DNA from: an uncultured Poribacteria bacterium | GTDB lineage: Bacteria > Poribacteria > WGA-4E > WGA-3G | Assembly: GCA_951812525.1 (NCBI GenBank) | Contig: OX638316.1 | Location: forward strand, 2,266,630 to 2,330,629 | Length of the DNA: 64,000 bases | Direction of reading: 5' to 3' | The notes under the pieces: generated by a model | What the model saw: only the letters and a program-made list of their open reading frames with translations | The model's database searches: none | What the model was told of the DNA's origin: nothing | Shown here: positions 3,885 to 24,410 of the stretch, piece by piece | How the letters are laid out: every line of letters starts with the position of its first letter | Position numbering within the stretch: position 1 is the first letter of the stretch | Position numbers and translations under genes: made by a program

Positions 3885-4475
3885 TCAAAAGGTTTTAACA
3901 ATACCAAAATAAAGATGTGAAGGGGTTGCACCGACTTCAATCCCCAATTTTTCCATTTCTTGTGCGTCTTGTTGAATAGACTGAACTAAAGTAGTCGCGT
4001 TGTAGAAATTAGAACTCACATAGGAATCGATAAGGCTGTAAACCCAGATACCAATACCGGTATACATAAAAAACGTTCTGAGTTTATAGCGCTGATTTGA
4101 GAAGGCATATCTTTCTAGTACCCCTGCCTCATCATGAGGATTTAAACTGGCATACGTTGCATAATCGTTGTAACGGTTACTAAACGATCTCTGTGCCAGC
4201 AAGGCGCCGACAGCAGAGCCTCCTATTCCCAAAACAGTCAAACTACCTCGGAAGTAGCTGCGGCTATAAAACTGTCCCCACCCGGGAAAAACGGCAGAGC
4301 GAACCATTGCCCCGATTGGCGAGACGAGTCTAATCTGTTCCTCTGTTTCAGATGTTTCCTGTTCAGTGTTTGTGCTCTTTTCAGCTTCTTGTGCATAACT
4401 GGCATGGAAACTGAAAGACAGCAGTGAAATAATCAGCAAAACTTGCAAAAATCGCATCTGATATGTAGGCTTCAC
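3885..4475 (-). CDS. DUF5683-like membrane/envelope protein
   Basis: This 196-residue protein has a signal peptide (cleavage probably after SYAQ, about residue 29). It then shows the AVFPGWGQFYSRSYFRG motif that marks the DUF5683/PGWGQ family, two hydrophobic helices (GSLTVLGIGGSAVGALLA and FFMYTGIGIWVYSLIDSYV) and a short C-terminal tail. The family is common in the FCB group and is of unknown function, usually encoded near envelope genes. It sits 45 bases downstream of the Tyr/Ser-rich secreted protein in the same operon. Confidence 0.75.
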   Translation of the reverse strand: MKPTYQMRFLQVLLIISLLSFSFHASYAQEAEKSTNTEQETSETEEQIRLVSPIGAMVRSAVFPGWGQFYSRSYFRGSLTVLGIGGSAVGALLAQRSFSNRYNDYATYASLNPHDEAGVLERYAFSNQRYKLRTFFMYTGIGIWVYSLIDSYVSSNFYNATTLVQSIQQDAQEMEKLGIEVGATPSHLYFGIVKTF

Positions 4476-6443: not shown

Positions 6444-7184
6444 TCACTCCCAGCCTTTGGGAATCAGTTTAATTCCTCTTTTTTTTGCGTGTTCACGTGC
6501 GAGTGGCGTAATAATCGCGTGGTTTTCATAAATCAACTCTCGCACACTCGGATCCAGATTTGAAATAGTCGAGGCACTAATCAGAGGCTTTTCCGAAGTG
6601 GCATACGAACTGTCCGTTTGCTCCTTGATTGACTCGGCGATTTGTACCATCGGTACTAATTGAACGCCAAGTTCAGACAAAACGTTTACATAGTTTACCT
6701 CAATGGTACCAGTTTCTGTAGAAGTTCTGTCCTGATTAAGGGCATCGGAGGCGGCTATAACTTTCTTTCCCTGAGAGAGTGCTTCAAAAACGAGGTAGCT
6801 ACAAGGCGTATCCACTAACCTTAATGCAAGTTTCGCGACCATCGGATAAGAAAAGACAGGAAGCACAATCTGCTGATATGTATCCACGAAGGTCGGTATA
6901 TTGGTTAGCGCGTTTTCCTCCAGAATGTTATCTTGGCTAAATGCAGTATAAATCGGTTCGGGGTTTATTACTTTAGTCGCGAGTTCGGACAAAATTATTG
7001 TAATTTTCCATCCGTCTTGTTCGCAGATACGGAGCTGCTGAAGTGGCTCATCCAATTCAAGTTGTGTGGCACCAAAGATAGCGAGCAGTCTTTTTTCGTG
7101 TGCAACCGGCGTAGTAGCGGGTATCTGCTCTCGCAGGACTCTCTCCACGACTTTCCTAATCTGGTCAATCAGTTCCTGGTTCAT
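6444..7184 (-). CDS. BMC-associated flavoprotein-like protein
   Basis: This 246-residue protein is encoded 32 bases after PduL in the BMC locus. The core (about 30-165) resembles the flavoprotein / phosphopantothenoylcysteine decarboxylase-like fold: LLAIFGATQLEL near the start, then QIVLPVFSYPMVAKLALRL and KKVIAASDAL. A basic amphipathic N-terminal helix (MNQELIDQIRKVVERVLREQ) resembles encapsulation peptides. The C-terminus has ENHAIITPLAREHAKKRGIK, a helical motif resembling tails of several BMC-associated proteins. Flavoprotein genes are known in Planctomycete/Verrucomicrobia-type BMC loci; their exact reaction is not settled. No Shine-Dalgarno motif is obvious. Assignment rests on context plus a moderate fold match. 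Confidence 0.65.
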   Translation of the reverse strand: MNQELIDQIRKVVERVLREQIPATTPVAHEKRLLAIFGATQLELDEPLQQLRICEQDGWKITIILSELATKVINPEPIYTAFSQDNILEENALTNIPTFVDTYQQIVLPVFSYPMVAKLALRLVDTPCSYLVFEALSQGKKVIAASDALNQDRTSTETGTIEVNYVNVLSELGVQLVPMVQIAESIKEQTDSSYATSEKPLISASTISNLDPSVRELIYENHAIITPLAREHAKKRGIKLIPKGWE

Positions 7185-7216
7185 GTTGGCTCAAAAGTAT
7201 GGGAAATCTGCGGGTT

Positions 7217-7930
7217 TTAGTCCACATCGCGCACGATTTCGACAGGTTCGCCACCTTTCAAACCGGCGGCGTTGGAATCGTCGGTGTCTAAGTGCATCTG
7301 AAGTACATATCCTTCAGAAATTTTCGGACGGACGTTTTCAAATGTTAAAGCGCGTTCACCACGGAAGTGTACCTTTAGAAGTTCATTCTCGCGAATACCG
7401 AGTGCTTCAGCGTGGTTAGGAGTCATGTGAATGTGGCGTGCCGCGCAGATTGCACCCTCTTCCAAATAGACACTTCCTGCGGGTCCGATGAGAGTAATAG
7501 GTTCCGCACCGGCGAGGTCACCCGAGTCTCGAATAGGTGGATTTAATCCGAGTCGGATGGCTTCCGTTTGTGCTACTTCGACTTGAGAGTAATCGCGTAC
7601 GGGACCGAGGATGCGAACGGCTTCAATAGCGCGCATCCTTTTTCCGACGATAGTGACTGTCTCATTTGCCGCGAATGCGCCCGGTTGATAAAGTGGGGCG
7701 TAAACAGTGAGTTGGTGCCCAGCACCGTAGAGGATTTCGAGGTGCTCCTGCGTTACATGAGCATGCCGCGCTGAAACTCCAACAGGGATTTGCTGCTGCT
7801 GCGCAACGACATCACATGCACGGTTTCCTGCCTCGCAGGTTCGCAAAGCACAACCGCTACACGCCTGGTCCGTCGTCAGCCTGTTGACAACACGGCGGGT
7901 AATCAACTCAACAAGGGCTTGGTCTGGCAT
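7217..7930 (-). CDS. pduL: PduL-type phosphate propanoyl/acyltransferase
   Basis: PduL exchanges CoA and phosphate on acyl groups inside BMCs, so that CoA is recycled in the lumen. This 237-residue copy has both metal-binding His pairs (ARHAHV, His56/His58; RHIHM, His166/His168) and the C-terminal HLDTDDSNAAG motif (His213), all expected of an active two-barrel PduL. Residues 4-20 form an amphipathic helix like an encapsulation peptide. Unusual is a four-Cys stretch between that helix and the first barrel (Cys24, 27, 32, 39; CSGCALRTCEAGNRAC), which could bind a metal or Fe-S centre. The gene lies between the shell gene (75-base gap) and the flavoprotein gene. Confidence 0.93.
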   Translation of the reverse strand: MPDQALVELITRRVVNRLTTDQACSGCALRTCEAGNRACDVVAQQQQIPVGVSARHAHVTQEHLEILYGAGHQLTVYAPLYQPGAFAANETVTIVGKRMRAIEAVRILGPVRDYSQVEVAQTEAIRLGLNPPIRDSGDLAGAEPITLIGPAGSVYLEEGAICAARHIHMTPNHAEALGIRENELLKVHFRGERALTFENVRPKISEGYVLQMHLDTDDSNAAGLKGGEPVEIVRDVD

Positions 7931-8005
7931 CTATGATTCGCCTTTTTGGTTAAGATGTCCCGAACGTTATTCGGGAACGTGGGGTCAATCGACTTAACAG
8001 ACAGC

Positions 8006-8281
8006 TTACGCTTTGCTCAACATGGTATCAACTTCCGCGTGGGGACGTGGAATCACGTGAACAGAAACAACTTCACCGACGCGTGCGGCTGCTTCGGCGC
8101 CAGCATCTGTTGCTGCTTTCACTGCGCCAACATCACCGCGAACCATGACGGTTACATAACCCGCACCGATCTGCTCATAACCGATGAGTTGGACATTTGC
8201 TGCTTTCACCATTGCATCAGCAGCTTCAATACTTCCAACCAAACCTCTTGTTTCAACTAAACCCAATGCATCTCCGTTCAT
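8006..8281 (-). CDS. BMC-H hexameric microcompartment shell protein
   Basis: This 91-residue single-domain BMC protein of the EutM/PduA/CcmK type has the signature [20 protein letters not shown] at the start, the pore-side segment [22 protein letters not shown], and IPRPHAEVD at the end. Hexamers of such proteins tile the shell facets. An AGGAGG site lies about 13 bases upstream, a longish gap. This is the only shell gene in view: no pentamer (BMC-P), trimer, aldehyde dehydrogenase or signature enzyme is in the window, so the rest of the compartment must be encoded elsewhere if it is functional. Confidence 0.95.
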
Positions 8282-12846: not shown

Positions 12847-13281
12847 ATGTTGCAGAAACATCGACAAGTTATCATTGTACTTCTGGGGATCTTATATGTT
12901 TATTCGGTATGTCCGTTCCTCTGTGCAACTTTAGAGCAGAAGTTCTGTCACGATGTATCTCAAGAAGTCCTGAGTGGAAATACTGAAACTCACTCAATCT
13001 GCTGCCAAAGTCCTAAAACAAGCGCGGCAGGTGAAGCCGAAACTCCATCAGAAAGTGGTAAACCTTGTTGTTCAACTGATTTAGAACTTGTTTTTCCGGA
13101 CGACAGACACAACCCCTCCGAGTTCCGTGAATTGATCGGACAGTCTCTCGTCTCAATTCTTCCTATTTCGGCAACTTCACCCGTTGCCTTCCAGGGGTCG
13201 ATCCAGACGCTCCCTGTACCTTTAACATCCACGTTTTTCCCCGATCATTCTCTATCCCGTAGAGGCCCCCCGTTTATTTAG
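12847..13281 (+). CDS. Small secreted Cys-rich protein at head of metal locus
   Basis: This 144-residue protein has an N-terminal hydrophobic segment (QVIIVLLGILYVYSVCPFLC) that looks like a signal peptide or anchor. Clustered cysteines follow (KFCHD, SICCQSP, KPCCSTD). The end SLSRRGPPFI resembles the RGPP-type tails of short proteins found near copper-resistance genes. Its position at the start of an efflux locus, and its eight Cys, suggest metal binding in the periplasm; this is inference. The ribosome binding site is weak (GGAG, about 13 bases away). No known domain is certain. Confidence 0.65.
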   Translation: MLQKHRQVIIVLLGILYVYSVCPFLCATLEQKFCHDVSQEVLSGNTETHSICCQSPKTSAAGEAETPSESGKPCCSTDLELVFPDDRHNPSEFRELIGQSLVSILPISATSPVAFQGSIQTLPVPLTSTFFPDHSLSRRGPPFI

Positions 13282-13477: not shown

Positions 13478-14527
13478 ATGAAAACGCGTCTACTTTTATG
13501 CGCTCTATTGTTGAATTGGATTTTTATCTCTGTCGGATTTGCTCAAGAAAGTTGTCCTGCTTGAAGTAATCCTGTCTTACCGCCCAGCGGTATGATGAAT
13601 GAAGTCAGTTTGGCTTCAAAAGAGATGGAACAATTTCGAGTAAATGTCAATATGTTGATGTCACCTGATGCCCGAGGTGGACACCTTGCGTCAACAGGAC
13701 TTTCACCGACAGGAAATCTGGTAGATGTTCCTTTGCATAGGCATCGTGTGGCGTTGAGTACTTATCGGGTTGATGTTGGATTACAATATCTGCTTAACGA
13801 TCAATGGACGTTGCAGGCAAACGTTCCATACGCCGTCAAAAACCAAGAGGCAAGTATTGAATGGCTTGATCCGGTAACTTCTGAAGATGAGCATGCCATT
13901 TTGCGGAGTAGGGATATTCATCATCGAGATGAAACCTACACTGGACTTGCGGATTTAGATTTATTTTTAGGCTATAAAATTCGAGGGCTCTTTAAAACTG
14001 GTGACATATTATTTACTCGGTTAGGCACGACGATTCCGACCGGCAGAACCGAGGAAAATCCGTGGACACTTGGAGATACAGGCATTGAACATCTCCATAT
14101 CCAGTTTGGGACCGGCACCTTTAATCCTATTGCTAATCTGCGGTACAGCGTGCCTCTTTACCGGGGTGGGATTATCACTGCGTCCGCTCGTGGGATGTTT
14201 CCGCTCTATGAAAATAATAAGACTTATCGGGGTCCAGTAGAGTTAAGCTATACGGCTGGCTTTACATATCGTCTTTTCGATTGGCTTTCGTTTAATGGAA
14301 ATTACCTCGGATTTTATCAATCCGCCGCCTCTTGGGCTGGCGAACGCGATATCAATACCGGGATGCGTTACAGTATGGCAGCACTAGGTATGTCCTTGGC
14401 AACGCTGGACGGTATTATCGTGTCTGCGAACGTCATGTTTCCACTGACGCAAGAGACGCTTTATGATGAAGGCGATGCTATTGAATTTGGGAATTTGGTT
14501 TCTTTGACCACATCCTATTCATTTTAA
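13478..14527 (+). CDS. Outer-membrane beta-barrel protein with in-frame TGA (candidate selenoprotein)
   Basis: Read from ATG 13478, the first 22 residues are an excellent signal peptide (MKTRLLLCALLLNWIFISVGFA). They are followed by QESCPA, an in-frame TGA at 13562-13564 (codon 29), then SNPVLPPSGMMNEVS and about 310 more open codons in the same frame. The stop thus falls in a C-P-A-X motif where a CxxC or CxxU is expected. The downstream part is a beta-barrel resembling the Phenol_MetA_deg/transporter-like family (repeats such as TRLGTTIPTGRTEENPW, GGIITASARGMFPLYENN; final Tyr-Ser-Phe). Starting at the internal ATG 13592 would remove the signal peptide and has no ribosome binding site. Explanations are Sec insertion at UGA (a hairpin follows), readthrough, a recent nonsense mutation or a sequencing error. 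The location in a metal locus would fit a redox or metal-binding CxxU motif. Confidence 0.7.
13573..13597 (+). promoter_or_regulatory. SECIS-like hairpin after the in-frame UGA
   Basis: Starting 8 bases after the TGA is a 10-pair stem with one U-U mismatch. The inner stem TACCGC-CCA-GCGGTA is perfect (13578-13592), and outer pairs involve 13573-13576 with 13594-13597 (two of them G-U). The apical loop begins 19 bases after the TGA, inside the 16-37 base window used for bacterial SECIS elements. The usual loop G is met only if the two inner pairs open. Confidence 0.4.
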
Positions 14528-14768: not shown

Positions 14769-15401
14769 ATGAAAACGAAATTGGCGCGACGCGTCGTCGC
14801 ATCTTTCTTAGCGATCACGGCTGTGTTAGTGTTCTCAATCTTTGCACTTAATGCTGAGGAAACGCATAAAGAGCATAGTGCTCATCAACACGGCGAGCAC
14901 ATGACAGCCGATGACGAAAAAGTGCGTTGTGCAGTTGATGGCATGATGATGAAACCTGCAGCGATGATCAAAGTCGATCAGGATGGAAAAGCCTACTATT
15001 TCTGCAACGAGATGCAAGCAGAGATGTTCAAGAAAAATCCAGATAAGTTCCTCCAAACAATTTCAGTGGGAAATTTGACTTTTGATCTCAATATGTTAAC
15101 CACAGATGCATACAAAATGATGATGTCTCACATGGGAATGGGAGGCATGATAAAAGCGGATGAGATTAAGGGGAAAACGCACTATTTCAGTGTGTATCCC
15201 ATACAGGATCACGGAGAAATTGCGTTAGGCGATGTTAAACTTGCCCTTCAGGTTACAAATACCGAAGGGGAGACAAAGATGGCATTGCTGAAATATAGCA
15301 AGATGACTCGCACCTATGAAGGGTTCATTGCTATGCCAAAAGGTGAAGAACATGCGGTTCGCATTCGTGTGACAAGTCCTGCTGTCAAGATTTCACTTTA
15401 G
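14769..15401 (+). CDS. Secreted YHS-domain metal-binding protein
   Basis: This 210-residue protein has a signal peptide (cleavage near ALNA, residue 29), then a His-rich stretch (HKEHSAHQHGEH). A YHS/TRASH-like domain follows (CAVDGMMMKPAAMIKVD, then AYYFCNEMQAEMFKKNPDKF) with paired Cys. The second half is Met-rich (MMMSHMGMGGM) and beta-structured. His, Met and paired Cys fit periplasmic binding of Cu, Ag or a similar metal and handover to the efflux pump. The start has an AAGGAG site 7-8 bases upstream. It follows the barrel gene by 240 bases with no visible promoter consensus. Confidence 0.82.
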   Translation: MKTKLARRVVASFLAITAVLVFSIFALNAEETHKEHSAHQHGEHMTADDEKVRCAVDGMMMKPAAMIKVDQDGKAYYFCNEMQAEMFKKNPDKFLQTISVGNLTFDLNMLTTDAYKMMMSHMGMGGMIKADEIKGKTHYFSVYPIQDHGEIALGDVKLALQVTNTEGETKMALLKYSKMTRTYEGFIAMPKGEEHAVRIRVTSPAVKISL

Positions 15402-15615: not shown

Positions 15616-16971
15616 ATGCGAGGAGTTAGTTTACTCTACCAGGTAATAGGAGTTGTTATCGGGAGCATGCTAATGTTGGATGCTCTGGCGCAAACGGAAC
15701 CATACGGAATAACGCAGACAACGTCAACTGTGGAACAAACTGATGTGACAACCCGGTTCGCTGAAACGCTTGAATTGCCGAGCTTAATTGAGGTTGCTGT
15801 TGCGCGGAATCCCAAAATTACAGCCGCAATGGCACGGTGGCAGGCGACAATTGAACAGTATCCACAAGTGACGGCGTTGCCCGATCCGATGTTTATGTAC
15901 GGCTACTACATGCGAAGCGTGGAGACGCGAGTCGGTCCTCAACGCCATCGGGTGAGTTTTTCACAAACATTTCCATATCCAGGGACGCTTGATGCGGCTG
16001 GGGAAGTTGTCAAAAAGGCGATTGAGATTGAGCGTGTGAAGCATGAACAGGTGATACGAGATCTCATTGTTGAACTGAAATTGAGTTACCACGAATTGGC
16101 ATATCTCCAACGGGCAGTCGAGTTGACACAACAAAATCACGACCTGATAGCCTCTATTCTCACGATTGCCACAGCGCGCTATGCTGAAGGGAAGGCAACG
16201 CTCAATGATGTGCTGAAGGCGCAAAGCCAACTCGCACAACTGGAGTACGATCTTATCCTGCTGAAGGAATTACAACTTGTTGAACATGCTAATATCAATG
16301 GGATCCTATCTATTCCTTCAACAACTCCGCTTGGTGCAACGGTTCCTGTTGTTTACGAACCGCTTGACGTAACATTATTGGATATAGAAAAACAGGCGTT
16401 ATCAAAACGACAGGAGTTGCGAATTGCGGAACTGGCTGTCGAGAAAGCTACCGAAGGCATAGCACTTGCAGAGCTTCGCATCAAGCCGATGCTTAAACTT
16501 GATTTAATGACAATAGAGACTGGTAAATCATTGATGTTAGACGCACCAGACAGTGGTAAAAATCCGTTTACTATTGGTTTTGGTGTGACAATTCCGTGGT
16601 CCGACCTCAAGAACAGTAGCAAGGTACGCGAGGCAGAAAAAAAACGTGAAGTCGTCACAGCAAACAAGCGCGTCTTAGAGGATCAAACGAGGGTTGCCCT
16701 CCAAAAGGTTTATTTTCGTCTTGAAAACGCGCGGCGGCTTATCGAACTCTATGAAACCACGCTTATTCCACAAGCGGGGGCCGCTATTGAAGCAGCTGAG
16801 ACGTGGCATCAGGAAGGTCCGAAGAGCATTATGGGTTTTCTTGAGACGCAGAGTGTTTGGTTAAATTTTAATCTCGCTCGCTTGCGTGCGATTACTGACT
16901 ATCAACAGAACATAGCCCGATTGGAGCAGCTTGTTGGGGGAAAGATCGATGATTCACATCCTGTACAGTAA
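15616..16971 (+). CDS. TolC/CusC-type outer-membrane efflux duct 1
   Basis: This 451-residue protein has a signal peptide (cleavage near DALA, about residue 25) and two outer-membrane-efflux-protein repeats. Telling parts are LPSLIEVAVARNPKITAAMARWQA at the start of repeat 1, the SFSQTFPYPGTLDAAGEVV segment, ATARYAEGKATLNDVLKAQSQLA, and the matching helix near the C-terminus. Such trimers form the duct from the adaptor to outside the cell. It has AAGGAG just upstream of the start, and its 3' end overlaps the start of the second duct gene by 23 bases, so the two are translationally linked. Confidence 0.88.
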   Translation: MRGVSLLYQVIGVVIGSMLMLDALAQTEPYGITQTTSTVEQTDVTTRFAETLELPSLIEVAVARNPKITAAMARWQATIEQYPQVTALPDPMFMYGYYMRSVETRVGPQRHRVSFSQTFPYPGTLDAAGEVVKKAIEIERVKHEQVIRDLIVELKLSYHELAYLQRAVELTQQNHDLIASILTIATARYAEGKATLNDVLKAQSQLAQLEYDLILLKELQLVEHANINGILSIPSTTPLGATVPVVYEPLDVTLLDIEKQALSKRQELRIAELAVEKATEGIALAELRIKPMLKLDLMTIETGKSLMLDAPDSGKNPFTIGFGVTIPWSDLKNSSKVREAEKKREVVTANKRVLEDQTRVALQKVYFRLENARRLIELYETTLIPQAGAAIEAAETWHQEGPKSIMGFLETQSVWLNFNLARLRAITDYQQNIARLEQLVGGKIDDSHPVQ

Positions 16972-18649
16972 AGGCAAATTGCAATATTTGTTCGTCCTTA
17001 TAGTTGTGCTTTTCAAGTGCGTCCGACGCTATTCTGTTTCAGGTATACTATATCGCCGCTGTATCCGCCATTGGAAGTCCAGTTTTACCGTATTCATTTG
17101 CCTTATAATGCTCACTGTTTTGGTAGGCGGGTGTGCCAATCATCGGCTGGAGACATACGAAGAATTGCGCAGCACTGAGATCCAACAACCTGCGTATTAC
17201 CATACAGAAGTAGAGAAAAGGGTTTCCAATACTGAAAGCGATCCGATCATAGCATCAGACCCGTTTCTCGATGAGGTTGAAGCGAAGGTGTTGAAATATC
17301 AGGAGCAGTGGCAAGTTCAATTAGAGAGTGAAACACCAATGCCAGATCTGTTTTACGATCTGTCAGGAGACACCGTGAAAGCCTATCGGCAATTGGCGGC
17401 TTCACCTGAAGAAGCAAAAACACGGCTTGCTCAGTCTATTGAGCTGGAACTCCTTATAGCACTCGGATATGAATGGAACCCGGGTCTGAAATCTGCTCGT
17501 GAAAAAATTCGGGCGGTACTGGAACAATACCCGCAAGCCGTCTACTTAGAGAATGTGTTGCGTCAGTATAATGCTTTCACGAAACAACTTGATACGAAGG
17601 CTGGACCGATGAGCCATAAAGAAATGATGGCAATGAAATTTCCGTTCCCGGGCACCTTGACACTGAAGGGTCAAATTGTTACTGAAGACGTACTTATCGC
17701 CCAAAAAGAATTTGAAATCGTTCTGCGAGATCTGGTGACCCAAATCCGGTTGGCTTACTACGATTATCTTTTTCTCATTGAGGCAACCCGCATTAACGAA
17801 GAAAATCAGGCGTTACTGCAGCAGATGATTGCTATCGCCCAAGCGAAGTTTCGTGTCGGACAGGGCAAATATTCAAACGTTATTATGGCACAAGTGGAGT
17901 TATCGAAATTAGCAGATACAATTATTACGCTTGAACAACAGCGGGAAACTATTATTGCGCGCCTTAATACGTTATTGAACGCTTCTACAGATTTGCCGTT
18001 AGGAGTCCCAGTGCCAATTGAAGAAGAACGCGTTATCCCTGCTTTGGCTGAGTTGTATGCGTTAGCAGTTCAGAAACGTCAGGAAATCCAAAAACAGAAG
18101 TTGGCAATCAGTAAGATGACCTTGGCTGTGGAAATGGCAAAGCAGATGACATATCCCGATCCGACGCTTGGTGCAAGTTACTTTGAAAACCGGAGCATGG
18201 GGAACTTAAAACACACACAAAAAATACCGGTGACTTTTATGACGCAACGCACATTAAATCCAGCAAATACAGCGTGGTTCGGACATCGAGATTCGTACAT
18301 CCATGAAATGGATGTGAAAATTGAAGCGATGGAGCACCGCATTGAGGAACTTGAAAGTAGTCTCCGCTTTGTTGTGAAAAAACATCATTTTGGAATGGAG
18401 ACAGCGAATCGGAGTATTCGCCTCTATCGGCATACCCTACTTCCGCAGGCGCGGCAAGCGTTGGATGCAGCGAATACAGCCTATCAGGCGGCACAAATTG
18501 ATTTTTTGAGTTTTCTTGATGCTCAACGCACTTTATTAAATTTGAGGATTGTAGAGCAGCGGGCATTGCGCGATTATCGTCAACATCTTGCACAGTTAGA
18601 ACAGGCTGTTGGCATGATATTGTCCAAACAACCCTTAACCCAGGAATAG
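16949..18649 (+). CDS. TolC/CusC-type outer-membrane efflux duct 2 (lipoprotein)
   Basis: This is a second outer-membrane-efflux protein. I place the start at ATG 16949, which is preceded by GGGGAAAG; an in-frame ATG at 16931 is possible. An unusually long N-terminus (about 50 residues) precedes a lipobox-like LVGGC, so lipidation is likely but the start is uncertain. Two OEP repeats follow with the family landmarks MKFPFPGTLTLKGQIVTED, IAQAKFRVGQGKYSNVIMAQ and AQIDFLSFLDAQRTLL. It overlaps duct 1 and is followed 24 bases later by the adaptor gene. It resembles duct 1 in layout but is clearly diverged, so the duplication is old. Confidence 0.85.
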   Translation: MIHILYSKGKLQYLFVLIVVLFKCVRRYSVSGILYRRCIRHWKSSFTVFICLIMLTVLVGGCANHRLETYEELRSTEIQQPAYYHTEVEKRVSNTESDPIIASDPFLDEVEAKVLKYQEQWQVQLESETPMPDLFYDLSGDTVKAYRQLAASPEEAKTRLAQSIELELLIALGYEWNPGLKSAREKIRAVLEQYPQAVYLENVLRQYNAFTKQLDTKAGPMSHKEMMAMKFPFPGTLTLKGQIVTEDVLIAQKEFEIVLRDLVTQIRLAYYDYLFLIEATRINEENQALLQQMIAIAQAKFRVGQGKYSNVIMAQVELSKLADTIITLEQQRETIIARLNTLLNASTDLPLGVPVPIEEERVIPALAELYALAVQKRQEIQKQKLAISKMTLAVEMAKQMTYPDPTLGASYFENRSMGNLKHTQKIPVTFMTQRTLNPANTAWFGHRDSYIHEMDVKIEAMEHRIEELESSLRFVVKKHHFGMETANRSIRLYRHTLLPQARQALDAANTAYQAAQIDFLSFLDAQRTLLNLRIVEQRALRDYRQHLAQLEQAVGMILSKQPLTQE

Positions 18650-18673: not shown

Positions 18674-20629
18674 ATGCTAAAAAATTTCTGTCTCGCAACT
18701 GCCCTGATCATTACTATTCTTTTTATATTCGGCTGTAGTCAACAAGAGCGTGTTGAAATGAAGCAGCATGTAAGTGAAGAACTTGAAACAAAATCGAAGG
18801 ATACGTCAGGCATGGATGAACACGCCGACCATGATTCAAGTGAAAAGCTTGAGATGGCAATGGATCAACACACCGATCATGCCTCAATGGCAGTATCCTC
18901 GAATGAAACAAAAACGATTCGGTATTGGACTTGTGTTATGCACCCCACAGTCAAGATGCCGGAACTTGGCAGCTGTCCGGTTTGTAAGATGGATCTAATT
19001 CCTATTTACGAAGGTTCAGGACTGGAACTAACTGAGCAGCAGAAGGAACTGATTCCAGTGCGGACTGAACCTGTGGCTTTCCGCGAGGTCTCGCGTGAAA
19101 TTCGAACCGTCGGTGTTCTGGATTATAACGAAACCCGTATGGCTTATGCCTCAACACGAATTTCTGGGTGGATTGAAGATTTGCACATTGATTTTACCGG
19201 TATTAAAGTGCGCAAGGGTGATGAACTCTTGTCTATCTACAGCCCGGAGTTGGTCACGGCACAAGAGGAATATTTAACAGCACTTAAAAGCATTGAGGAG
19301 CTTCGAAACACAGAGTACGCCGAACTTCGCAGATCGGTTGAACAGACCGTTACTGCTGCAAAATCCAAACTTGAATTGTATGGATTAACTTTAGCTCAGA
19401 TTGAGGATATTCGCAACCGCGGAGAAGTCAGTACGACGTTACCACTGTTTGCACCGATAGCTGGCACTGTGGTTCACATGAACGTTATGCAGGGTCAATA
19501 TGTGAACAAGGGTATGCATCTTTACCGTATTGCTGACCTCGATAGTTTATGGATTATGGCAGACGTTTATGAATATGAATTGCCGTGGATTTACATGGGG
19601 CAAGCGGTTGAGATTACTGCGCAATCGATGCCGGGATTGACATTTTCTGGCAAGGTTACATACATTTATCCATTCTTTGACGCGCAAACTCGAACCCAAA
19701 AGGTCCAGATAGAAGTTGCCAATCCGACTAAACGACTCCGTCCAGGGATGTACGTGACGCTTCAAATAAAACCGACACTCGCAGAAATTTATACCGATGG
19801 AGCGATCTCGAAAGCACCGTATGCATGTCCAATGCATCCATGGGTTACGTCTGAACATCCCGCTGAATGTGAGATCTGTGGTATGGATCTGGAACCGACA
19901 GATTCCAAGATCGTTGGGACTGAATCGGCATCTGGAACAGAGGGAAAGTGGGTATGCCCGATGCATCCAGAAGAGCAATCTGATGAGTTCGGTGAATGCT
20001 CTATCTGTGGCATGGATCTCGTTGAAAAAGTGGAGGTATCTACCCCTACAGAGACGACAGCATCTGTGTGGGCATGTCCGATGCATCCAGAAGAGCAGTC
20101 TGATGAGTTCGGCGAGTGCTCTATCTGTGGCATGGATCTCGTTGAAAAACAGCCAACAGCGGCGGGGACTGGTACCCATTTCCATGCACATCAACCTACA
20201 GTCCGTTCAGATCAGCCGCCGCTGATTTTCAAATACGTGTGTCCTGACCATCCCGATGAGTATGCAACCGTACCTGGACTATGTCCACGTGATGGGAAGC
20301 CTCTCCTCATGACAGGTGAGGTCTTAACGGTCCCCAAAAGTGCGGTGATTGACACCGGTTTACGGAAGATAGTCTTCGTGGATCGCGGCGAATCGGGTTA
20401 TGAACAGATTGAAATTGAAGTAGGTCCCGAAGCTTGGGGAATGTCGGAGGACTCAGAAACCAAGCGCCGATACTATCCCATTGTTAGCGGACTTGCACCT
20501 GATGATATGGTCGTCACCAATGGCAACTTCTTAATAGATTCGCAGACGCAATTAACAGGCTCCGCATCAGGTGCGTATGGTGGTGCACTCGGTGGTGAAG
20601 AATCAAAAGCCCCTGTCCATCAACATTAA
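18674..20629 (+). CDS. CusB-like adaptor with five heavy-metal-binding ribbons
   Basis: This 651-residue lipoprotein (lipobox FIFGC, Cys21) is a periplasmic adaptor of a metal RND pump. After a His/Met-rich leader comes a heavy-metal-binding ribbon at about 85-111 (YWTCVMHPTVKM...CPVCKMDLIP). The CusB/HlyD body (about 120-375) contains FAPIAGTVVHMNVMQGQYVN and RIADLDSLWIMADVYEYEL. Four more ribbons are inserted at about 382-412, 426-455, 466-495 and 521-548 (CPMHP...CEICGMDL, two copies of CPMHPEEQSDEFGECSICGM, CPDHP...CPRDGKPL). A C-terminal adaptor domain ends in KAPVHQH. Most adaptors carry none or one such ribbon. The ribosome binding site AAGGAG is well placed. Confidence 0.9.
   Translation: MLKNFCLATALIITILFIFGCSQQERVEMKQHVSEELETKSKDTSGMDEHADHDSSEKLEMAMDQHTDHASMAVSSNETKTIRYWTCVMHPTVKMPELGSCPVCKMDLIPIYEGSGLELTEQQKELIPVRTEPVAFREVSREIRTVGVLDYNETRMAYASTRISGWIEDLHIDFTGIKVRKGDELLSIYSPELVTAQEEYLTALKSIEELRNTEYAELRRSVEQTVTAAKSKLELYGLTLAQIEDIRNRGEVSTTLPLFAPIAGTVVHMNVMQGQYVNKGMHLYRIADLDSLWIMADVYEYELPWIYMGQAVEITAQSMPGLTFSGKVTYIYPFFDAQTRTQKVQIEVANPTKRLRPGMYVTLQIKPTLAEIYTDGAISKAPYACPMHPWVTSEHPAECEICGMDLEPTDSKIVGTESASGTEGKWVCPMHPEEQSDEFGECSICGMDLVEKVEVSTPTETTASVWACPMHPEEQSDEFGECSICGMDLVEKQPTAAGTGTHFHAHQPTVRSDQPPLIFKYVCPDHPDEYATVPGLCPRDGKPLLMTGEVLTVPKSAVIDTGLRKIVFVDRGESGYEQIEIEVGPEAWGMSEDSETKRRYYPIVSGLAPDDMVVTNGNFLIDSQTQLTGSASGAYGGALGGEESKAPVHQH
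19951..20150 (+). repeat. Recent tandem duplication of a metal-ribbon module
   Basis: The blocks from about 19951 and 20071 (roughly 80 bases each, 120 apart) are almost identical at DNA level and encode the same CPMHPEEQSDEFGECSICGM ribbon. Only a few synonymous differences separate them, so the duplication is recent. Confidence 0.85.
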
Positions 20630-20729: not shown

Positions 20730-23700
20730 ATGATTAACCGAATTATTGACATCTGTATGAAAAACCGCCTGTTGGTCTTGGTTATCTTTGTATTCGTAAC
20801 AATGGCGGGTTGGTGGGCACTGAACCAAACACCAATTGATGCGATGCCTGACATCGGTGAAAATCAAGTTATTGTCTTCGCCGATTGGCCCGGACGGAGT
20901 CCACGGGATATAGAAGATCAGGTTATCTATCCGTTGAGTATTACCATGCTTGGCATTCCCGATGTCAAAGATGTTCGCTCAACTGCAATGTTTAGCTTTG
21001 GCTACATTAACATTATCTTCAAAGATGATGTTGATTTCTATTGGGCTCGCACACGGGTACTGGAGCGAATGAATCTCGCCCAAAAAGACATGCCAGACGG
21101 TGTTGTGCCTATCCTCGGTCCCGATGCGACCGGAGTTGGACAGGTATTTTGGTATACCGTTGAAAATGGATACTATTGCCCTAAACATCCGACAGAGCGT
21201 TATGCTGCACCTGGTAGATGTCCAGAAGATGGAGAACCGCTCGTTGCCTCCAATTTGGAACTTCATGAACTTCGGACGCTCCAAGATTGGACGGTTCGTT
21301 ATTATCTCGCCTCCGCTGATGGCGTTTCAGAGGTCGCTTCAGTCGGTGGATACGTTAAACAGTATCAGATTGACATCGATCCGAACACTTTATTGGCGTA
21401 TAACGTGCCGTTGTCAGCGGTTTACAATGCTGTTCGTGGGAGCAACCTTGATGTCGGGGCAAAGGTTATTGAAGAAGGCGGAATGGAATTCCTGATTCGG
21501 GGCTTGGGCTTTATCAAAAGCATCACGGACATAGAAAACATCGTTGTCAAGGCGCATGACGGTGTTCCTATCTACGTCAAAAACCTTGGAACGGTCAGCG
21601 AGGGTCCCGATTTCCGGCGCGGTGCCTTGGACAAGGCTGGTATCCCCGCAACCGGTGGGGTCGTGCTAATGCGCTACGGTGATAATCCGTTGCGCGTCAT
21701 TGAGAACGTCAAGGCGAAAATAGCAGAACTCACTCCTGGGCTTCCTTCAGGTGTCCGAATTGTCCCGTTCTACGACCGAAGCCATCTTATTCACCGTGCG
21801 ACCGACACGCTGAAGGAAACGTTGACGGAGGAAATCATCGTTGCAGCAGTCGTTATTCTGCTATTCTTAGGACAAGTATCAAGTAGCCTGATAATAGCAC
21901 TGGTTTTACCGATGGGTGTTCTGCTTTCGTTTGTGGGTATGCGCATTATTGGTTTACCATCGAACATCATGTCGATGGGTGGTATCGCCATCGCGATTGG
22001 CGTTATGGTGGATGCTGGTATTATAATGACGGAGAATATCACGCGTCATTTACGGGAGCCACACGCAGGTGAAAGTAAGCTTCAAGTTGCAACCCGTGCT
22101 GCCAAAGAGGTGGGTCCACCTATCTTCTTTGCAATGCTCATTGTTATTGTTGCGTTCATACCTGTTTTTTCACTCACCGGTCAGGCTGGTAAACTTTTCA
22201 AACCGCTTGCCTATACGAAAACTTTCGCGATGCTCGGTGCAGCACTCTTAGCGATTAGTCTTGTGCCGGTTTTGGCATCATTTCTACTCACTGATCCGAC
22301 CCGTACCCCGACAGGTACGGTTTCCAAGTGGGCGGCACGACTGCTTTCACTATTAGGCTGGCCCCTGAGAAAGTTGGCGGATGGGATTACGTGGATACTC
22401 AGAACTGCCTATCGTCCGATTATTCGGTTGGCAGTAAAGAATATTTGGACTAAACTCGCCGTTGTTGCCTTGGCGTTACTGGTGTTTGTTGCAAGCATGC
22501 CGTTGACACCTTTCTACAAAAATATTGGACAAGAATTCATGCCGCCACTTAATGAGGGGGCGTTGCTGTTTATGCCGGTGCTGCTTCCCGGTGCTTCAAT
22601 TACGCAAGCACAAGATGTGATGGCGAAGCAGGATTTGATTATGAATCGATTTCCAGAGGTTTCACTTGTCGTGGGAAAATTGGGACGGGCAATGACAGCA
22701 ACCGATCCTGCTCCAATTGGGATGTTTGAAACTATTGTCAATATAAATGACCCAGTGGAGTGGCCCCGACGAGCGGTTAAACGCCGTGCAACAAGGGAAC
22801 TGGTGACCCACCTTGTCCAACGCTTAGGACAGGACGGGCTGATAAGCGCAGAGCACGCAAGTCATATTAATGCCAATTTTCTGGATGACATTGTTACAAA
22901 GACCGTAGAGCGATTTGATACCTTAGCGACAACGTATCACAATTCTTATCTGTCAGTTGCCGAGCGCGAGAAACTCTATCGCATCTGGTTATTACGAATC
23001 CTTTTAGAAGAACTTCTCGCTGAGAAGCGGGCAGAAGGAATGGGATTAGAACACGTTAAAATAGGGCAGACTGAGACTGAAGAGAAACTGCATCGAATCT
23101 CCGAGGAAATTGAACCTACCCTTAAGCATAAGGCTTACTTCCAGACCAAGAACCGCAACGAACTTATTACCGAACTGACAGAGGCTACCCGGATGCCAGG
23201 GGTTTCGCCTATTATGACACAACCTATACGTAATCGCGTCGATATGCTGGCAACGGGTATACAGACCCCAATCGGAATTAAAGTATTTGGTAAAGACCTC
23301 GCGAAGATTGAAGAAATTGCAGTCCGGATTGAGCAGGAGCTCCTTAAACTTGAGGGGGCGGTGGGTCCGTATGCCGAACGGATTGGAAATAAGCCCTACC
23401 TTGAATTTCACATTGACAGAGAGGAAGCGGCGCGCTACGGCATCCAAATCCGAACGGTACAACAGGTCATCATGACAGCAATCGGTGGCATGAATTTAAC
23501 CTATACCGTTGAAGGGCGAGAGCGATTTCCGATTCGTATCCGCTACATGAGAGAATTACGGGATAATATTGAGGCACTCAAGCGTGTACTCGTGCCAACC
23601 CCAAAAGGACTCCATATTCCACTTGAACAACTTGTAAAAATCGAAAGACGACCTGGTCCCGCGAAGATTGCAAGTGAAAACACACTCCTCTTTTCTCGCG

Positions 23701-24410
23701 TTTTTTGTGATGTGGATGTTGACACTATTGGACTGGTTGATTTCGTCGCATTAGCCCAAAAGGTGCTTGATGAAAAGATTAAACCGACTTTGCCGCAGGG
23801 CTATTTCTACGCTTTTAGTGGACAGTATGAAGCGGAATTGGAAGCCCGCGATCGATTGGCGATTGTTGTGCCGGTATGTATTGCTGTCATTTTCATGTTG
23901 TTATATCTCCAATTCAAATCGCCCTCTGCGATGTTTTCAATCTTCCTTGCGATTCCCTTTGCGTTTATCGGTGGTATGTGGATGCAATGGTTGATGGCAT
24001 ACGTGCCTGAGGCACTTGGCGGGGGTTACGCCATTAAATATAGTACGGCAGTGTGGGTGGGGTACATAGCCTTATTTGGCATAGCCGTTGAAGATGGGAT
24101 AGTCTTAATTGAATACTTACTGGGACGCGTCCGAGGTGGTGAGCCTATTGACGAAGCGGTGATCAATGCAGGCTTACTGCGCGTTCGTCCCATCATTATG
24201 ACAACAGCAACCACAGTCTTAGCACTGTTGCCGATCATGTTAGCGGAGATCAGTACTACCACCGGTGCGGAGTTGATGAAGCCCATCGCCGTACCTACCT
24301 TCGGTGGTATGGTCTCGGCAACGGTGGCGAACCTTATCTTAGCACCTGTGTTATTCTCTCTTTTTTATCCCGTTGAGTCTTGGATTCGACAGCGTAAGGG
24401 AGATGCATAA
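20730..24410 (+). CDS. cusA: CusA/CzcA-type heavy-metal RND efflux pump with insertions
   Basis: This is the inner-membrane proton-driven pump of the locus, 1226 residues against about 1040 for typical members. Family landmarks include TPIDAMPDIGENQVIVFADWPGRSP, PDATGVGQVFWYT, LRTLQDW, IAIGVMVDAGIIMTEN and LMKPIAVPTFGGMVSATVANL (quoted in parts). Two insertions explain the extra length. One is a metal ribbon at about 147-174 (YYCPKHPTERYAAPGRCPED), like those in the adaptor. The other is a Lys/Glu-rich helical block at about 680-800, in the periplasmic region before the MPGVSPIMTQPIRNRVDML segment. Cu or Ag export is inferred from the Cys/Met/His partners. The gene lies 100 bases after the adaptor and its ribosome binding site is weak. 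Confidence 0.92.
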   Translation: MINRIIDICMKNRLLVLVIFVFVTMAGWWALNQTPIDAMPDIGENQVIVFADWPGRSPRDIEDQVIYPLSITMLGIPDVKDVRSTAMFSFGYINIIFKDDVDFYWARTRVLERMNLAQKDMPDGVVPILGPDATGVGQVFWYTVENGYYCPKHPTERYAAPGRCPEDGEPLVASNLELHELRTLQDWTVRYYLASADGVSEVASVGGYVKQYQIDIDPNTLLAYNVPLSAVYNAVRGSNLDVGAKVIEEGGMEFLIRGLGFIKSITDIENIVVKAHDGVPIYVKNLGTVSEGPDFRRGALDKAGIPATGGVVLMRYGDNPLRVIENVKAKIAELTPGLPSGVRIVPFYDRSHLIHRATDTLKETLTEEIIVAAVVILLFLGQVSSSLIIALVLPMGVLLSFVGMRIIGLPSNIMSMGGIAIAIGVMVDAGIIMTENITRHLREPHAGESKLQVATRAAKEVGPPIFFAMLIVIVAFIPVFSLTGQAGKLFKPLAYTKTFAMLGAALLAISLVPVLASFLLTDPTRTPTGTVSKWAARLLSLLGWPLRKLADGITWILRTAYRPIIRLAVKNIWTKLAVVALALLVFVASMPLTPFYKNIGQEFMPPLNEGALLFMPVLLPGASITQAQDVMAKQDLIMNRFPEVSLVVGKLGRAMTATDPAPIGMFETIVNINDPVEWPRRAVKRRATRELVTHLVQRLGQDGLISAEHASHINANFLDDIVTKTVERFDTLATTYHNSYLSVAEREKLYRIWLLRILLEELLAEKRAEGMGLEHVKIGQTETEEKLHRISEEIEPTLKHKAYFQTKNRNELITELTEATRMPGVSPIMTQPIRNRVDMLATGIQTPIGIKVFGKDLAKIEEIAVRIEQELLKLEGAVGPYAERIGNKPYLEFHIDREEAARYGIQIRTVQQVIMTAIGGMNLTYTVEGRERFPIRIRYMRELRDNIEALKRVLVPTPKGLHIPLEQLVKIERRPGPAKIASENTLLFSRVFCDVDVDTIGLVDFVALAQKVLDEKIKPTLPQGYFYAFSGQYEAELEARDRLAIVVPVCIAVIFMLLYLQFKSPSAMFSIFLAIPFAFIGGMWMQWLMAYVPEALGGGYAIKYSTAVWVGYIALFGIAVEDGIVLIEYLLGRVRGGEPIDEAVINAGLLRVRPIIMTTATTVLALLPIMLAEISTTTGAELMKPIAVPTFGGMVSATVANLILAPVLFSLFYPVESWIRQRKGDA

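Follow-up and report, generated by a model that had tools for sequence, protein, structure and literature searches.

An apparently new selenoprotein family of predicted outer-membrane beta-barrels in Poribacteria

Outer-membrane barrels with selenocysteine (Sec) are in themselves already known, since both MtrB/PioB-like and TonB-dependent receptor families are included in a 2026 review of selenoproteins (PMC13188914). That review lists GSU2204, of the MtrB-PioB family (NF041027), as an outer-membrane beta-barrel selenoprotein, and a TonB-dependent receptor of the FCYXU type (NF049945) as an outer-membrane selenoprotein carrying a CxxU motif. For the COG4313/PF13557 channels we found no record of Sec; one of them, 4RL8, has its first 14 residues folded into the barrel, entering from the periplasm (PMC4493636). 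We also considered ExtI, a Geobacter porin encoded beside a selenoprotein cytochrome, and set it aside: it is phosphate-porin-like and, in the part of its description available to us, is not itself reported to contain Sec.

The gene described here lies on the forward strand at 13478-14527 of the window, by which we mean the whole 64,000-nucleotide stretch that was analysed, taken from a single-contig Poribacteria genome of 5.06 Mb. Its frame runs from an ATG at 13478 to a TAA at 14525-14527 and is interrupted at codon 29 by a TGA (13562-13564), beyond which 320 codons follow. Read with TGA as Sec, it encodes a 349-residue protein, predicted to be an outer-membrane beta-barrel of COG4313/FapF fold. 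Codons 1-22 (13478-13543) resemble a signal peptide on inspection of the sequence, with the cleavage site at ...GFA|Q, and are followed by a CPAU motif at 13553-13564, made up of Cys26 (TGT, 13553-13555), Pro27, Ala28 and Sec29 (TGA). The first-pass annotation of this DNA had pointed to the same elements, a signal peptide, C26-P-A, the TGA at 13562 and about 320 further codons in frame, and all of them are present. Its proposal that UGA is read as Sec in a barrel protein of a metal locus is supported by the homologs, the sel genes, the hairpin and the gene context set out below, and we consider it almost certain that the gene encodes a selenoprotein with Sec at 13562-13564.

A single in-frame TGA in a long reading frame often means a nonsense mutation, a pseudogene or a sequencing error, and the first of these, or an error, had been raised as a caveat for this position. 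We therefore consider this possibility first against the family as a whole, for which we assembled 85 rows, comprising 82 from Poribacteria (80 of them distinct) and 3 from Bacteroidota. Codon 29 is TGA in 82/82 poribacterial rows, never TAA, TAG or a sense codon, and dozens of independent assemblies agree on it. TGA occupies the second motif position in 82 of all 85 rows, the other 3 having a Cys codon there, while the first position is TGA in 52 and TGT or TGC in 33. The terminal stops of the same genes are TAA, TAG and TGA in 37, 31 and 17 rows, respectively, and since family genes thus end in any of the three codons, a genuine stop would not have stayed frozen as TGA. Among 85 genomes of the phylum, the family occurs in 67, mostly as two copies each in the genus of the window, and every copy that is complete through the motif has kept one or two TGA codons; copies lacking TGA are partial matches without the motif, located at a contig end (G004) or consisting of pieces (G046, G049, G063 and G082). 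The median Ka/Ks is 0.11 for the whole gene and 0.024 for codons 23-40 around the motif, a substitution pattern which indicates that purifying selection acts on both sides of the TGA and that the motif codons are the most constrained. With the same codon conserved across independent assemblies and under such constraint, the caveat is rejected, and we regard the probability of a mutation, pseudogene or error at 13562 as negligible.

UGA reassignment occurs in other phyla, and a reading of the codon as an ordinary amino acid in the window genome would also leave the frame open. It is contradicted by UGA serving as terminator of the window genes at 3885, 6444 and 8427 and of 17/85 family genes, by the fact that in-frame TGA codons in the family stand at Sec/Cys positions, apart from one case in a single row, and by a complete Sec machinery in the genome, so that reassignment, too, has a vanishingly small probability. 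This machinery comprises selA (594 bits), selB (336 bits), selD (358 bits) and a selC with a score of 78 bits, a UCA anticodon and a CUUCAAA anticodon loop, located 40 nt from selB; all four genes whose presence had been suggested as a check are thus found in the same genome. The selD gene (G000:C1:3914052-3914975, L081) is itself a selenoprotein gene, with an in-frame TGA in a KCAGUASK site.

The third way of accounting for the TGA without recoding is that a short leader peptide ends there and that the barrel restarts at ATG 13592. Two adjacent ATG codons are indeed found at 13592-13597, and the table-11 open reading frame begins there. The signal peptide, however, belongs to the upstream part, and the S-N-P directly after the TGA never varies and aligns with a Cys form whose frame has no interruption. 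Downstream starts are moreover not conserved: 13/85 rows lack one within the following 20 codons, and a CPAU subclade with GIGEVS lacks the ATG. Finally, the stop of a leader could be TAA or TAG, and never is. We consider a leader with internal restart very improbable, and, on the evidence of conservation, start codons and stop codons, it was rejected together with a pseudogene and code reassignment. One practical consequence of recoding is that table-11 annotation cuts the barrel protein short in these Poribacteria genomes.

The uninterrupted form is found in four Bacteroidota homologs, a Saprospiraceae protein with 41% identity from a genome scan (L163) and three from two further searches (L167, L168 and L171), all of which have CPACSNP in the same register and no internal stop, with motif columns that coincide with those of Poribacteria in the alignment. 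Together with the 82 poribacterial rows this answers the question of whether homologs carry Cys or TGA at codon 29, and, as judged from the alignment, TGA in Poribacteria against Cys in Bacteroidota is a classic Sec/Cys pair. No selA match was found in the four Bacteroidota genomes with CPAC, although their completeness is not stated and this absence weighs less than a presence would. Three Bacteroidota genomes gave candidate tRNA-Sec matches of 45-48 bits, which we take to be other tRNAs, since the best poribacterial tRNA-Sec genes score 70-79 bits and ordinary tRNAs there about 42-45.

Downstream of the TGA, a bSECIS-like hairpin occupies 13573-13597 on the forward strand, with 10 pairs, including two G-U, and an apical loop CCA at 13584-13586. 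It is present as first described, 8 bases after the TGA and with its loop at 19. The bSECIS model places the loop 16-37 nt after the UGA and asks for a minimum free energy of -7.5 kcal/mol or lower (PMC13188914); at 19 nt and -10.5 kcal/mol (45 nt from the TGA) the hairpin lies within both limits, and scoring against this model, which the first-pass annotation had proposed, is favourable on these two counts. The CCA loop departs from the rule of the model that a G is found in the first two loop positions, and the earlier remark that none stands there unless inner pairs open is accurate, the number of such pairs being two. A CGA loop is found in 9/19 distinct CPAU hairpins, and most loops of the double-Sec UGAU form begin with G. 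Across 21 distinct CPAU sequences, the fold of the 42 nt from the TGA is 5.3 kcal/mol more stable than in synonymous-codon shuffles (mean z -2.3), unlike control windows along the gene, where the mean z lies between +0.4 and -0.8, which argues that the CPAU hairpin is not due to chance. For the UGAU hairpins the gain over synonymous shuffles is modest (mean z -1.0).

The hairpin also covaries. With 64 distinct sequences compared in a single register, 80% of the cells of an 8-pair helix are paired, and the covariation score is 0.269 as compared to 0.120 after shuffling, a value reached by 0/500 shuffles; the shuffle test may be inflated by related sequences, and the firmer control is that of slid registers, which score at most 0.088. 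Double changes occur in three pairs in which both partners are third codon positions, namely columns 15-33 (CG, GC, AU, UA), 18-30 (UG, CG, AU) and 21-27 (GC, AU, UA). Directed by this hairpin 8 nt downstream, SelB and tRNA-Sec would almost certainly decode UGA 13562 as Sec, a step that is strongly supported, and from which we infer Sec insertion at this UGA itself. In the double-Sec form, the loop lies 28 nt after the first UGA (6+3+19) and 19 nt after the second, and as both distances fall within the range of 16-37 nt, one bSECIS could serve both codons. A single hairpin would then recode two UGAs, for which the double-UGA copies offer a test case. Rfam had no match anywhere in the 64-kb window.

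The orthologs of the window gene form a clade with QESCPAUSNP and one TGA, while a paralog clade has QESUGAUSNP and two; the UGAU paralog of the same genome (G000:C1:3955660-3956739; L048 7498-8580, minus strand) is 57% identical. In the family tree, for which a midpoint root was used that splits Bacteroidota from Poribacteria, CPAU is a single clade (100/100) nested inside UGAU rows, and a CSAU form (L160) is the sister of a UGAU copy from the same genome, implying at least two Sec/Cys changes at the first position within Poribacteria. Judged on the sequences, the direction of change would most simply have been from Sec to Cys. The second position is unchanged throughout the phylum, and the ancestral poribacterial form would probably have had Sec at both positions, the window clade having swapped the first for Cys. 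Since Sec/Sec, Cys/Sec and Cys/Cys all occur within a single tree, the family constitutes a natural experiment on the purpose of each Sec. As a separate observation, a conserved Trp codon is replaced in one UGAU paralog (L127/L066, G029:C5) by a third in-frame TGA, which may be a mutation, an error or the mark of a decaying copy.

An AlphaFold2 model predicts a beta-barrel (pLDDT 76, pTM 0.74) spanning residues 53-348 (13634-14521, forward strand), with the motif in an N-terminal stretch of pLDDT below 50. The best Foldseek matches of the predicted barrel are FapF 5O67 (E 2e-13) and the COG4313 channel 4RL8 (E 1e-10), and there is a weak Pfam match to PF13557 (Phenol_MetA_deg; E 8.7e-4, 19.8 bits against a cut-off of 22); the PDB contains no sequence relative. 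The protein is thus predicted to be a COG4313/FapF-type barrel, presumably in the outer membrane, and its invariant histidines occur as GGH, HRH, HHR and HLH. Once the signal peptide has been cleaved off, the mature protein would start with QESCPAUSNP..., ahead of the first barrel strand, and this segment would probably plug the barrel from the periplasmic side; that the CxxU sits on a plug segment is suggested by the N-terminus of 4RL8, which folds into its own barrel. The COG4313/PF13557 channels are characterised by 12 strands and by an N-terminal segment lying in the lumen; the window protein matches 4RL8 and FapF in fold and has an N-terminal segment, which the model places with low confidence.

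The metal-locus context noted at the outset is right. All on the forward strand, the barrel gene is preceded by a gene for an exported-looking, Cys-rich protein of 144 residues with CC motifs (12847-13281), which is the upstream neighbour in 26/26 CPAU loci compared, and is followed by genes for an exported-looking YHS-domain protein (14769-15401; Pfam score 29.9, just below the cut-off of 30.3), a TolC-like outer membrane efflux protein (OEP; 15616-16971), a second protein, a conserved neighbour, that is TolC-like by reading only (16931-18649), a CusB-like adaptor with four HMBD heavy-metal-binding domains (18674-20629) and a CusA/CzcA-type RND heavy-metal pump (20730-24410). The YHS, two TolC-like, CusB-like and CusA-like genes follow the CPAU gene in most of the 26 loci, and this downstream set is missing in several, e.g. 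L085, L095, L097 and L100. Some details of the window stand apart from the barrel gene. The TolC-like genes at 15616-18649 are in tandem and, provided that the TTG start at 16931 is correct, share 41 bases; the CusA-like pump is 1226 residues long, with an inserted YYCPKHPTERYAAPGRCPEDGEPL segment similar to the HMBD domains in the adjacent CusB and, farther along, a long insertion; and 6444-8281 reads, by eye only, like a bacterial microcompartment cluster (BMC shell-like 8006-8281, PduL-like 7217-7930).

The double-Sec form occurs in an equivalent locus, since in L134 a UGAU barrel lies between homologs of the window genes at 12847 and 25366. In 4/4 Bacteroidota loci, the gene immediately before the barrel encodes an HMA-thioredoxin fusion, and the surroundings include CsoR-like repressors, MerT-HMA, P-type metal ATPases or a multicopper oxidase; parallel to this, a UGAU barrel is preceded by a YHS-thioredoxin fusion, a BlaI-type repressor and a BlaR1-type peptidase (L161 3859-5998). 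The association with metal-binding thioredoxins and metal resistance is thus repeated, not universal. The UGAU paralog of the window's genus lies between an aldo/keto reductase gene and SBP_bac_5/ABC permease genes (a peptide-type ABC transporter), an arrangement conserved across the genus, which means that a role in metal handling may not extend to every member of the family. Around several other UGAU copies, too, no metal genes are in view. Plasmid records gave no match.

We infer the role of Sec in this metal-locus barrel from its motif and its neighbours. The most likely reading, to which we give about an even chance, is that the Cys/Sec pair and the conserved histidines would act as a soft-metal ligand and/or a thiol-selenol redox site of a metal-handling outer-membrane channel beside a CusABC-type pump. 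It is also quite conceivable, if short of an even chance, that the selenoprotein stands and the pair, instead of being a metal site, has a general role in periplasmic redox chemistry or peroxide protection, or forms a structural bridge within the plug: both CxxU and UxxU count as classical redox motifs, the barrel has thioredoxin fusions next to it in L161 and in each of the four Bacteroidota loci, and the genus paralog lacks metal neighbours. The neighbouring thioredoxins are, however, fused to metal-binding HMA or YHS domains, and the CPAU and Cys forms are located in metal-resistance loci. One could further speculate, as an unlikely but specific idea, that the barrel is a selenium-gated channel, in which soft-metal binding or a redox change at the Cys-Sec (ancestrally Sec-Sec) pair of the plug opens or closes the barrel, coupling the periplasmic metal or redox load to outer-membrane permeability, with the double-Sec form using one hairpin for two UGAs three codons apart.

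The family is not among the 119 selenoprotein families of the 2026 review (PMC13188914), and NCBIfam release 20.0 yields nothing for the window protein at a threshold of E 0.01. Literature combining selenoproteins or selenocysteine with Poribacteria or sponge symbionts yielded nothing relevant by title and abstract, a partial coverage that leaves room for prior notice elsewhere. Several metal-linked selenoproteins, those of the MerT type (C/SxxU), the SO_0444 Cu/Zn efflux protein (UxC) and the NF041115 metal-binding proteins (UxxU), are likewise metal resistance proteins with Sec placed in CxxU, UxxU or related motifs, but they are not outer-membrane barrels, and no NCBIfam homology of the window protein was detected. 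With NF049945 it shares CxxU and, by prediction, the outer-membrane location, but that family is a TonB receptor, and the GSU2204/MtrB-PioB family (NF041027) is a different, CXXCH-containing one for which no Sec motif is given. In predicted structure the barrel is alike to the COG4313/Phenol_MetA_deg (PF13557) channels, e.g. Pput2725 (4RL8), and to FapF (5O67), while it differs from COG4313/PF13557 by an invariant C/U-x-A-U/C-S-N-P motif, invariant histidines and a sequence score below the Pfam cut-off. It thus adds an apparently new selenoprotein family to the COG4313/FapF-like channel fold class, found in 67/85 genomes of an uncultured, sponge-associated phylum.
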